Positions 1 to 16,643 of a stretch of DNA of 64,000 bases are shown here, one piece after another. Each line of letters opens with the position of its first letter. Positions within the stretch are counted from its first letter, which is position 1. This DNA comes from Prochlorococcus sp. MIT 1307. GTDB taxonomy: Bacteria > Cyanobacteriota > Cyanobacteriia > PCC-6307 > Cyanobiaceae. The notes beneath the pieces are model-generated. The model was not told the DNA's origin, did no database searches, and saw only the letters and a list, made by a program, of their open reading frames with translations. The stretch covers positions 124,001 through 188,000 of the forward strand of contig NZ_CP139301.1 of assembly GCF_034092395.1 (NCBI RefSeq), in the 5' to 3' direction. Position numbers and translations under genes: made by a program.

Positions 1-396
1 TAGTGTATTAATGCAAGTAAGTTTGATAGTGACTCTTAGTTGCTCTGTCTAGGTGTCGATGCAGTAGTTGCTTTTAATTATAGCCACTCCTAATTCGAGA
101 TATATACAAGTTCAGCGAAAACAGCCAGGTTATTAAGACCACCTTGAACAAAAACCAAAAAAAGCCAAATAGCCTTGATCCTTGTTAATGCTATTTAGGC
201 AAAAAAAGAGACCCTTGCGAAGTGCATTGGGCCTGGGTGATGGGGAACCTCTTTTCTAAGCGGGATTCAATAAAAAATCAAGTCCTCCTACAGCTAGTGT
301 CTGAGGTTACAGATAGATCAATTCAGATCTATCCCTAGTGTTCTGGCTGTCTTGTTCCTCCTTGACGCTTACTGATGTTTCTTCTTGTTTGAGATG
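1..396. other. Intergenic region, no convincing gene
   Basis: I see no supported coding region here. The only recognisable structure is a degenerate trace (about 198-278) of the element duplicated at 14.6 and 16.2 kb, described separately. The rest is AT-rich sequence with stops in all frames. Confidence 0.6.
198..278 (+). repeat. Diverged partial copy of the 14.6/16.2 kb repeat
   Basis: About 80 bp align with the 3' part of the ORF in the duplicated element. Read in frame it gives RQKKRPLRSALGLGDGEPLF and a stop, against AKKRPLRNALGLGDGETVF in the two intact copies. Similarity fades soon after the stop codon. An ATG at about 190 would give only a 23-residue peptide, so this is best read as a relic of the same family. 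Confidence 0.6.
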
Positions 397-14460: not shown

Positions 14461-14601
14461 TTGACTAATGAAAAATTAGAGCAAAAGATTAATTGTGAGA
14501 TAAAGAAGCTTCAAGAACAGCTTGGAGCTTCTGAAGAGGATATTGAAGAATTTCGTCGCCTTCTTGAACTCGCCAGAGACGAAGGTAGCAAGTCAGATTA
14601 A
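14461..14601 (+). CDS. Small acidic coiled-coil protein
   Basis: A 46-residue ORF starting with TTG at 14461, giving MTNEKLEQKINCEIKKLQEQ, then LGASEEDIEEFRRLLELA. It is almost entirely charged helix. There is no ATG in frame. It ends 10 nt before the left edge of the 398-bp repeat, so it marks the insertion or duplication boundary. Confidence 0.4.
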   Translation: MTNEKLEQKINCEIKKLQEQLGASEEDIEEFRRLLELARDEGSKSD

Positions 14602-14611
14602 AAGACCAGGA

Positions 14612-15009
14612 GAGGGTTAAGGAAGAGGAATATCAATTGAAGTATTTGGTTAGTGCAATAGCTTTAACTTCCTCTACGAATGCTTTGATTTCTTGGATGC
14701 TCTTTCTACTTTCGGCAAAAAAAAGACCCTTGCGAAACGCTTTGGGCTTAGGTGATGGGGAAACTGTTTTCTAAGAGAGATTGGCTCAAAATCAACTACA
14801 CCCCCCCCCCACACACACACAAGTTTTGTTGTTCTGTATCAAAACCATTAGATATTCCACAAGTAGTGTGTAGCACCAGGGCACAGCCATCTTGGTCTTG
14901 ATTCTTGCCGTTTATAGGGTGGGTGATGTTGGGCAAATGTTGTTTTAGTGAGCAAAAGCCTTTTTGTGATGAGAAGACTGATGACTTTTGGTTGTAATAG
15001 GGACGCTAT
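14612..15009 (+). repeat. Direct repeat copy A, 398 bp
   Basis: Nearly identical to 16217-16611 in the same orientation. By eye the only differences are two substitutions (T/C in the GCTTTGGG region; G/T near the right end) and two slippage changes: C10 against C9, and (AC)5 against (AC)4. It contains a 45-codon ORF and about 230 bp of non-coding sequence. No terminal inverted repeats or transposase are present. Confidence 0.9.
14637..14774 (+). CDS. 45-residue membrane protein in repeat copy A
   Basis: TTG at 14637 is preceded by a good ribosome site (GGAAGAGG, about 8 nt away). The product begins MKYLVSAIALTSSTNALISW, continues MLFLLSAKKRPLRNALG and ends LGDGETVF: one or two short hydrophobic spans and a basic-then-acidic tail. 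The same protein is encoded in copy B, and the tail recurs at about 198-260. No family known to me. Confidence 0.4.
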   Translation: MKYLVSAIALTSSTNALISWMLFLLSAKKRPLRNALGLGDGETVF

Positions 15010-15192
15010 ATAAGGATTCTTCTATGCCATGAGGGAGTAGGTTCTTTAAGACTGATTGTGATTTTGTACAAGTAGATACTTGTCACTTTTAAGTTATGAG
15101 TTTAGGGATAGTCTAGGAATCAGAATCTTTGAAGATGAGATTTAACTTGTGCTTTCTCCTCTCAACTGTTTTTGGCGGCAGGTTAAATATCT

Positions 15193-15372
15193 ATGCCCAG
15201 ATATTCTCCTCGCAATCCCATTATGCTTATTCAGGCTATCAACTTATCAAAAAAATGTTATTTAAGTCTCAATTGCCCTTCAGTTAGTCAAAGGCTTGCC
15301 TTAAGGCGCTTGACCCTTACAAGAAGTATAGATTTGCTTAATAGATGCCCTCTTCCTGTAGTTATTGCTTAG
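15193..15372 (+). CDS. Possible small basic protein
   Basis: A 59-residue ORF, MPRYSPRNPIMLIQAINLSK onward, basic with three Cys (KKCYLSLNCPS and NRCPLP). It lies between the repeat copies. Composition is unremarkable and I cannot match it to a family. Confidence 0.3.
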   Translation: MPRYSPRNPIMLIQAINLSKKCYLSLNCPSVSQRLALRRLTLTRSIDLLNRCPLPVVIA

Positions 15373-15450
15373 GTACTTTATATTTGGAAACTAAAATTAC
15401 CTACGATGAAAAATAGATGCTATAAAACAAACCTGCATCTGGGAGGTGTC

Positions 15451-15606
15451 ATGACAAATAAATTAAGAGTCCTAAATTCAGAAGACAAGCGTGATCCTTT
15501 AGATTCCTATTTTGAGTGCATTACTGCTTGTTCATGGGTTGGCGGAGAGGATGTTGAATGTGTTACACGTTGCGTCGAAGTACATCTTAAAGAAGGGGCT
15601 CAATAG
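15451..15606 (+). CDS. Small twin-CX3C protein
   Basis: A 51-residue protein from the ATG at 15451, chosen because a near-perfect ribosome site (GGGAGGTG) precedes it; an upstream ATG at 15406 has none. It carries two CX3C motifs, CITAC and CVTRC, separated by 11 residues (SWVGGEDVEC). In mitochondria twin CX3C proteins are small chaperones with disulfide-locked helices. Whether that applies here is speculation. The next gene starts 2 nt after its stop. Confidence 0.65.
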   Translation: MTNKLRVLNSEDKRDPLDSYFECITACSWVGGEDVECVTRCVEVHLKEGAQ

Positions 15607-15608
15607 TT

Positions 15609-15881
15609 ATGTTAAAAAACCCAATATACGTAAGTGATAAAGGAGGAACTATTAATTCTTTTCGTGGAGATACGGAATTGGTTTTTCGTGTTTGTTCGAA
15701 TCACCTCTCTTTTTTCTGCAGTGATTTAGATGCAGCTAGAGCTCAATTAGATAGGCTTGAAAATCGCCAAGCTTTAAATAATCCTCGCCTCTACTCAATA
15801 GTAAATGAACCTAGAAAGGCATTAAAAGAACTTGTAGAAAAAGCTGCTGCACCCTATTTAGATGAAGAGTCAGTTGCTTAG
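15609..15881 (+). CDS. Conserved hypothetical, partner of the twin-CX3C gene
   Basis: A 90-residue soluble protein (MLKNPIYVSDKGGTINSFRG..., ending APYLDEESVA) with a helical centre (LDAARAQLDRLENRQALNNP). It starts 2 nt after the stop of the twin-CX3C gene, so the two form an operon. Its two Cys (RVCSNHLSFFC) sit in a strand-like segment. Function unknown. Confidence 0.6.
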   Translation: MLKNPIYVSDKGGTINSFRGDTELVFRVCSNHLSFFCSDLDAARAQLDRLENRQALNNPRLYSIVNEPRKALKELVEKAAAPYLDEESVA

Positions 15882-16075
15882 TTCTTTTTCGCTTTGCCTT
15901 TAGCATTTTATTTTTTTTACTAAATATTATTTATTATTTTCAGATTGTTGAATTCACTAAAATTAAAATTTACCCATTATTAATGATATGCATTAGTCTT
16001 AAAAGAATGATTTAATTTATAATCAATTTTTCTTAGGGAACTTTCCAATTCGTTAAGGTAGACTTTTCTGTCTAA

Positions 16076-16204
16076 ATGGCAAAAACAACTTTACCTAAAC
16101 CAGATAAAGATCAACCATGGAGGATCTGGGGATTCGTTTTTGGATTAAATCTTGTTGCTTGGGTTGGTTGGTATTTCATGCATGATGCTCCAACCAAATG
16201 GTGA
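16076..16204 (+). CDS. Small single-span membrane protein
   Basis: A 42-residue ORF: a polar start MAKTTLPKPDKDQPWRIWGF, a helix (FGLNLVAWVGWYFM) and the end HDAPTKW. The Pro/Trp boundary before the helix looks like a real thylakoid or plasma-membrane small protein. It ends 12 nt before repeat copy B and overlaps a spurious longer ORF in another frame. Confidence 0.55.
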   Translation: MAKTTLPKPDKDQPWRIWGFVFGLNLVAWVGWYFMHDAPTKW

Positions 16205-16216
16205 ATCAGCTAGGGC

Positions 16217-16611
16217 GAGGGTTAAGGAAGAGGAATATCAATTGAAGTATTTGGTTAGTGCAATAGCTTTAACTTCCTCTACGAATGCTTTGATTTCTTG
16301 GATGCTCTTTCTACTTTCGGCAAAAAAAAGACCCTTGCGAAACGCTCTGGGCTTAGGTGATGGGGAAACTGTTTTCTAAGAGAGATTGGCTCAAAATCAA
16401 CTACACCCCCCCCCACACACACAAGTTTTGTTGTTCTGTATCAAAACCATTAGATATTCCACAAGTAGTGTGTAGCACCAGGGCACAGCCATCTTGGTCT
16501 TGATTCTTGCCGTTTATAGGGTGGGTGATGTTGGGCAAATGTTGTTTTAGTGAGCAAAAGCCTTTTTGTGATGAGAAGACTGATGACTTTTGGTTGTAAT
16601 AGGTACGCTAT
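16217..16611 (+). repeat. Direct repeat copy B, 395 bp
   Basis: Second copy of the element at 14612-15009, three bases shorter because of one C and one AC unit. The 1.2 kb between the copies holds the twin-CX3C operon and the 42-residue membrane gene. Recombination between copies would delete that block. Confidence 0.9.
16242..16379 (+). CDS. 45-residue membrane protein in repeat copy B
   Basis: Protein-identical to the ORF of copy A apart from any effect of one silent substitution. It uses the same TTG start behind GGAAGAGG. A longer frame opens at an ATG at 16152, but that overlaps the 42-residue gene and is absent from copy A, so I prefer the TTG start. Confidence 0.4.
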   Translation: MKYLVSAIALTSSTNALISWMLFLLSAKKRPLRNALGLGDGETVF

Positions 16612-16643
16612 CTAATGGAGGCCTAAGACTTAGGAGCAATAGC

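Follow-up and report, generated by a model that had tools for sequence, protein, structure and literature searches.

What is a near-identical repeat of roughly 0.4 kb doing on either side of a small two-gene operon in a Prochlorococcus genome? The window analysed here, a stretch of 64,000 nt (G000:C1:124001-188000), belongs to a single-contig genome of 2,032,419 bp that is rated 100% complete. Alignment of the two copies (Table 1) confirms that the duplication is real, with direct repeats in the same orientation displaying 98.3% identity and a spacing of 1605/1602 bp. Differences between them are confined to three substitutions and a single 3-nt indel, corresponding to C10(AC)5 versus C9(AC)4. 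The sequence-only reading had listed this indel correctly but only two substitutions; the copies extend to 15014 and 16616, and two of the three substitutions sit within the last ~15 nt of the repeat, at the edge where that reading stopped. Near-identical direct repeats commonly cause misassembly, so that the recent pair might itself be an assembly artefact; given the differences just listed and the fact that each of the four flanking sequences is unique, we regard this as highly improbable.

With regard to the age of the pair, a repeat search of G000 returns nine places, and all except the two window copies share just a core of 51-105 nt, which is 81-89% identical between the window copies and the other paralogs. 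Because the 98.3% identity of the pair far exceeds these values, the duplication event is recent, which bears out the earlier proposal of a recent event or gene conversion with neither a transposase signature nor an inverted end. Indeed, when the ends of the window copies are read alongside the alignment, they are not inverted with respect to each other, and no target-site duplication is convincing. Orthologs of the gene preceding copy 2 (16076-16204) in four relatives have flanks that lack the motif over the extent retrieved, and thus copy 2 is either lineage-specific and derived, or lost in these four. As to whether this might be an ancient core locus in relatives, the distribution of the small RNA (sRNA) family described below indicates that the family is ancient across Prochlorococcus clades, and that the second copy alone is new. 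The window pair would derive from recent local recombination, whether by duplication or gene conversion. Since the copies are direct repeats, homologous recombination could, as had been suggested, delete the intervening 1.6 kb, including the twin-CX3C operon.

The operon between the copies, previously described as conserved, does belong to a real family, with two further paralogous operons in G000 (92862/93053 and 1688725/1688402; 36-47% identity). Its proteins have no Pfam or NCBIfam family match, and comparison of the flanking small proteins with the same collections gave nothing useful except ribosomal S21. A tiny membrane-protein-like ORF with the ending ..DWIYVVVSLTGL.FI.W.VLRPRQ* was also observed directly preceding the element at G000:C1 89.6k, 108.7k and 114.0k, with the 114.0k copy harbouring an internal stop.

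Within each repeat copy lies a predicted sRNA gene of ~46 nt on the minus strand, termed sRNA-B herein. Its core consists of an invariant CCCCATCACC, followed by a GC hairpin with a T run at its end, and the gene runs from a TTG-N17-TAnnAA promoter to an intrinsic terminator, with the invariant CCCCAUCACC as the predicted 5′ end of the transcript. A covariance model, R1, was built from 19 copies of this core. Amongst 98 copies, which are related sequences and hence do not provide independent counts, TTG occupies the −35 position in 89, 91 have a 17-bp promoter spacer, and in 95 a gap of 6-7 nt separates the −10 hexamer from CCCC. The mean promoter score is 9.3, compared with 6.55 (sd 0.16) when the upstream DNA is shuffled, under a scoring scheme that mildly favours a 17-bp spacer, equally in real and shuffled sequence. 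As the −35/−10 spacing is fixed relative to CCCC, the predicted transcript would start at approximately this point, giving a length of 37-54 nt, T run included, with one outlier of 29 nt. The terminator has a mean stability of −10.0 kcal/mol on its own strand, versus −8.4 on the opposite strand and −5.0 when shuffled, and folds better on the B strand in 59 of 80 distinct copies, because its U-G pairs become C-A mismatches on the other strand. Little compensatory change in this terminator is apparent in alignments A1 and A2.

Table 1. Coordinates of the repeat copies, of the features within and between them, and of the third sRNA-B gene (window positions; G000 positions where indicated)
Feature	Position	Strand	Basis
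Third sRNA-B gene, B-only paralog	201..247	-	R1 match G000:124204-124288 minus, 96 bits
Repeat copy 1 (sRNA locus with flanks)	14612..15014		alignment
sRNA-B copy 1, predicted	14717..14762	-	R1 match G000:138719-138802 minus, 85.8 bits; promoter statistics; fold
sRNA-B copy 1, terminator hairpin, U8	14717-14724	-	fold −7.1 kcal/mol
sRNA-B copy 1, predicted 5′ end near CCCCAUCACC	14760-14751	-	predicted
sRNA-B copy 1, −10 element TAGAAA	14768..14773	-	sequence, promoter statistics
sRNA-B copy 1, −35 element TTGATT, 16-nt spacer	14790..14795	-	sequence, promoter statistics
C10(AC)5 microsatellite, copy 1, just upstream of −35; sole indel between copies	14801..14820		sequence, alignment
Operator-like palindrome CCACAAGTAGTGTG, family motif CACTANNNNTAGTG	14857..14870		sequence, half-site count
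Decayed divergent A′ remnant, copy 1: GGGTGATGTTGGG instead of GGGTGATGGGG	14914..14965	+	no stable fold, z +0.26
Twin-CX3C operon, first gene (passenger between copies)	15451..15606	+	ORF list, paralogs
Twin-CX3C operon, second gene (passenger)	15609..15881	+	ORF list, paralogs
Repeat copy 2	16217..16616		alignment
sRNA-B copy 2, predicted	16322..16367	-	R1 match G000:140324-140407 minus, 86.0 bits
sRNA-B copy 2, −10 element	16373..16378	-	sequence, promoter statistics
sRNA-B copy 2, −35 element	16395..16400	-	sequence, promoter statistics
C9(AC)4 microsatellite, copy 2	16406..16422		sequence, alignment
Decayed A′ remnant, copy 2	16516..16567	+	sequence, alignment

The core could instead be a mere transcription terminator or 3′UTR element, copied behind small genes rather than forming an independent sRNA, given that in the plus orientation several copies begin right after a small ORF (such as those ending in VLRPRQ*, or the ORFs ending at 14601 and 16204). 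The terminator of sRNA-B, however, acts on the strand opposite these ORFs, a promoter of fixed spacing stands 6-7 nt ahead of CCCCATCACC in nearly all copies, and loci from high-light strains retain promoter, motif and terminator despite lacking common flanks; we therefore consider this explanation unlikely, and an sRNA gene the better description. A third, diverged tail of the repeat had also been noted at 198-278, and the similarity is genuine (85% over 74 nt), but it reflects an independent, B-only paralog gene rather than the tail of the same repeat. Likewise, the 45-codon ORF said to be carried by the repeat exists, but not as a conserved coding repeat: it runs antisense to sRNA-B and begins in flanking sequence common to the window copies alone, with paralogs reading differently, and a protein-coding function for the repeat was rejected.

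The feature that most distinguishes the family is not the repeat itself but a divergent, mutually complementary pair of RNAs, the transcription and function of which are predictions. In 57 of the 98 copies (~58% of B loci), the CCCCATCACC-type motif recurs at a distance of 80-225 nt upstream, where it marks a predicted divergent sRNA, A′. The hairpin of this transcript, GGGUGAUGGGGAUC, is complementary to the 5′ end of sRNA-B over 11-12 nt and has the tip UGAU-GGGG-AUCA, on the strand opposite B. In all 51 distinct cases it folds better on the A′ strand (−11.9 versus −5.7 kcal/mol; shuffled, −4.5), whilst the identical 11-mer in the B context, which serves as an internal control, does not form the hairpin. 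Covariation was assessed using 20 sequences picked without the outer stem, leaving aside the high-light and shifted-register Synechococcus forms, and amounts to 0.229 versus 0.158, a level matched in none of 500 shuffles, with three pairs displaying compensatory change. Upstream of the hairpin is an invariant TANNNT and downstream a terminator, with the −35 element being poorly defined. Predicted pairing of B with A′ from the same locus amounts to −37.4 versus −26.6 kcal/mol (mean z −3.0, with z < −2 in 36 of 57). The notion of a single long RNA across the element was set aside, as every one of the 51 cases has its more stable A′ hairpin on the strand opposite B, and many high-light B loci lack A′ entirely.

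Half-sites of the family palindrome occur in 77 of 98 copies, compared with ~3.5 in shuffles, and their position near the B and A′ promoters suggests common control, putatively by a shared regulator. As both RNAs are predicted to be transcribed outward from this palindrome-bearing centre, terminators occupy both outer ends of the unit. Both window copies have an A′ that appears dead, because its motif is altered and has no stable fold. These copies may also be decaying more generally, given a weak sRNA-B terminator (z −0.8 to −1.4), a 16-bp promoter spacer, an interrupted operator and the loss of functional A′. Most other family members harbour a G run of 3-9 in place of the C/AC tract. Variant arrangements were also seen elsewhere: L030 (G003:C22) and L035 (G005:C46) are chimeric loci in which the two CCCCATCACC motifs seem to have recombined with each other and removed the intervening segment, whilst L150, L151, L152, L153 and L157, from marine Synechococcus, are A′-type loci without B, in which the hairpin is preceded by a conserved block and a palindrome resembling CACCAGATCTGGTG is present.

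Copies were sought within G000 and across its relatives. R1 matches sRNA-B nine times in G000, with seven matches falling within 52 kb, and the repeat core is present in six of eight genomes of the genus, G000 included. A strict scan of 300 family genomes yields matches in 106, at 1-9 copies each. These genomes span the clades of Prochlorococcus and include a small number of marine Synechococcus, in which weaker copies occur. Amongst 194 genomes sampled across the class, 13 have R1 matches and all belong to this same family, with no matching genome outside it. In MED4, B loci occupy 348,895 (+), 772,358-772,441 (−) and 936,756-936,834 (+), the first with a predicted B start at about 348,932-348,935 (+), and MIT9313 has loci at 1,083,115-1,083,200 (+) and 1,102,827-1,102,911 (−); where present, A′ would begin on the other strand, shortly ahead of its hairpin. 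Near-identical pairs recur in this distribution. G000 possesses a second pair, of 378 bp and 100% identity, inverted and 11.5 kb apart (1682514-1682891, 1693984-1694361), in which the block contains a Yfr2 (Cyano-1) gene alongside sRNA-B and A′. Further pairs are found in G006 (840 bp, 99.9%, direct, 1.58 kb apart), G064 (364 bp, 96.7%, direct), G004 (270 bp, 95.9%, inverted), G005 (267 bp, 95.9%, on two contigs) and G001 (81 bp, 93.8%, inverted). Since such pairs recur in G000 and five relatives, local duplication or gene conversion appears to be a habit of the sRNA-B family, and because their extents vary, both orientations occur and there are no constant ends, homologous recombination or gene conversion is favoured over transposition.

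These same observations bear upon the suggestion of a small replicative or satellite-like element, for which a non-autonomous, MITE-like unit moved in trans by a transposase or integrase would be the most concrete form. The element is multicopy and unstable in position, it resides in an island setting where a tyrosine-recombinase C-terminal fragment (G000:97805-98131) lies within the stretch holding seven of the nine copies, and full-length copies are bounded on either side by outward-facing terminators that resemble inverted ends. Set against this, the window copies show neither the inverted ends nor the target-site duplication expected of a MITE, the conserved features are strand-specific transcription signals, and the near-identical blocks vary from 81 to 840 bp, one even taking in a neighbouring Yfr2 gene, unlike a fixed element. 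Nor was there any match to phage records, or any match to B in viral contigs. We thus view a mobile element as improbable, and the satellite-like description was abandoned: the part conserved across Prochlorococcus clades is a promoter, a short transcript and a terminator. A viral origin was similarly rejected, with five A′-pattern hits in viral contigs of 61-70% GC attributed to chance.

Comparison with known RNAs indicates that sRNA-B is an apparently unnamed tiny-RNA gene of marine cyanobacteria. Other than neighbouring genes, no match to Rfam 15 was found for the element at E-values up to 5 in the G000 loci, or at the gathering score in 40 further loci, and the MED4 copies at 348,895 (+), 772,358 (−) and 936,756 (+) are absent from the Yfr8-Yfr21 table of PMC2518516. 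The closest parallel is Yfr1/Yfr10-Yfr12-Yfr18 with Yfr2-Yfr5 (Cyano-1, RF01701), which like the predicted B and A′ are short cyanobacterial sRNAs in which an exposed C-rich motif pairs with a second multicopy sRNA. Furthermore, four sRNA-B copies (two in G000, and one in each of two relatives) precede a Cyano-1/Yfr2 gene by ~45 nt, the place of Yfr10 in high-light strains. Unlike Yfr1/Yfr10, however, sRNA-B carries CCCCAUCACC, with the unadecanucleotide 5′-ACUCCUCACAC-3′ present in none of the 98 loci, and unlike Yfr2, A′ falls outside Cyano-1 and is predicted to share a centre with B, from which the two are transcribed in opposite directions. The Cyano-1 (RF01701) covariance model does not match the element, its hits being separate neighbouring genes, and a Yfr1 gene as well as two additional Yfr2 genes are located at other sites in G000. 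Yfr11/Yfr16 (RF02363) resemble sRNA-B in being island-borne paralogous sRNAs; the RF02363 model does not match the element either, with its L095 hit lying beside it at another position and on another strand.

The family may nonetheless correspond to an RNA already described, such as Yfr103 or another later Yfr entry. Yfr103 is a multicopy RNA of 290-328 nt, the most abundant ncRNA in MIT9313, and of unknown function (PMC5069720). Compared by description alone, it has a similar strain range (SS120, MIT9313, Synechococcus), multiple copies and a conserved palindrome upstream of its TSS (PMC5069720). The units here, at ~46 and 65-100 nt from promoter to terminator, are far from that length, and in view of this, of the lack of an Rfam match and of the MED4 loci falling outside the Yfr8-Yfr21 table, we judge identity with a described RNA to be rather unlikely.

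Taken as a whole, the repeat is probably a duplicated regulatory-RNA locus comprising B and a complementary A′. The ~46-nt sRNA-B would present an unpaired CCCCAUCACC at its start and an intrinsic terminator at its end, whilst in most paralogs an A′ of ~65-100 nt, transcribed the opposite way from the same centre, would display GGUGAUGGGGA in its hairpin. The two should be able to pair over their complementary stretch, in a manner analogous to Yfr1/Yfr10 with Yfr2. Most likely, B would bind GGUGAUGGGG sites in RNAs, namely in A′ itself, which would titrate B, and in 3′UTR hairpins of a 97-aa protein family as candidates. The window copies, putatively products of recent local recombination, kept B and lost A′. 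Because multicopy B is usually found back to back with a complementary sRNA, the arrangement suggests a regulatory RNA accompanied by a dedicated sponge, and not a parasitic element.

The 97-aa, coiled-coil-like proteins are encoded outside the window, at G000:C1 90748-91041 (−), 105437-105730 (+) and 118119-118412 (+), with copies 84-85% identical. A hairpin, GUGAUGGGGAUCAC, with the same tip as sRNA-A′, follows each stop codon by ~18 nt, and is also present in G004, G033 and G038. Pairing of B with these 3′UTRs is no better than that of shuffled B (z −0.4 to −1.7). B-Yfr1 pairing is weak (z −1.8 against shuffles), and Yfr2 was discarded as a partner, with pairing not above chance. No wider target claim is made, since the nine other GTGATGGGG sites in G000 approximate the seven of a reversed-pattern control.

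A broader proposal, held tentatively and at somewhat less than even confidence, is that of an undescribed family of divergent complementary sRNA pairs, each a regulator and cognate sponge under one operator, multiplied and homogenised across the genomic islands of marine picocyanobacteria. In this scheme, slippage in the promoter-proximal G/C microsatellite may tune B, and the same sponge hairpin is borne by the 3′UTR of an mRNA family. Prochlorococcus possesses few protein regulators, yet retains many RNAs. In addition, most strains examined lack Hfq (PMC2518516). If correct, an RNA set back to back with its complementary partner, in up to nine copies, would constitute a compact regulator-plus-sponge module across Prochlorococcus clades. 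The B/A′ loci yield exact start-site predictions that can be compared with existing transcriptome maps, and their repeated near-identical copies may offer sites at which recombination could remove island genes.
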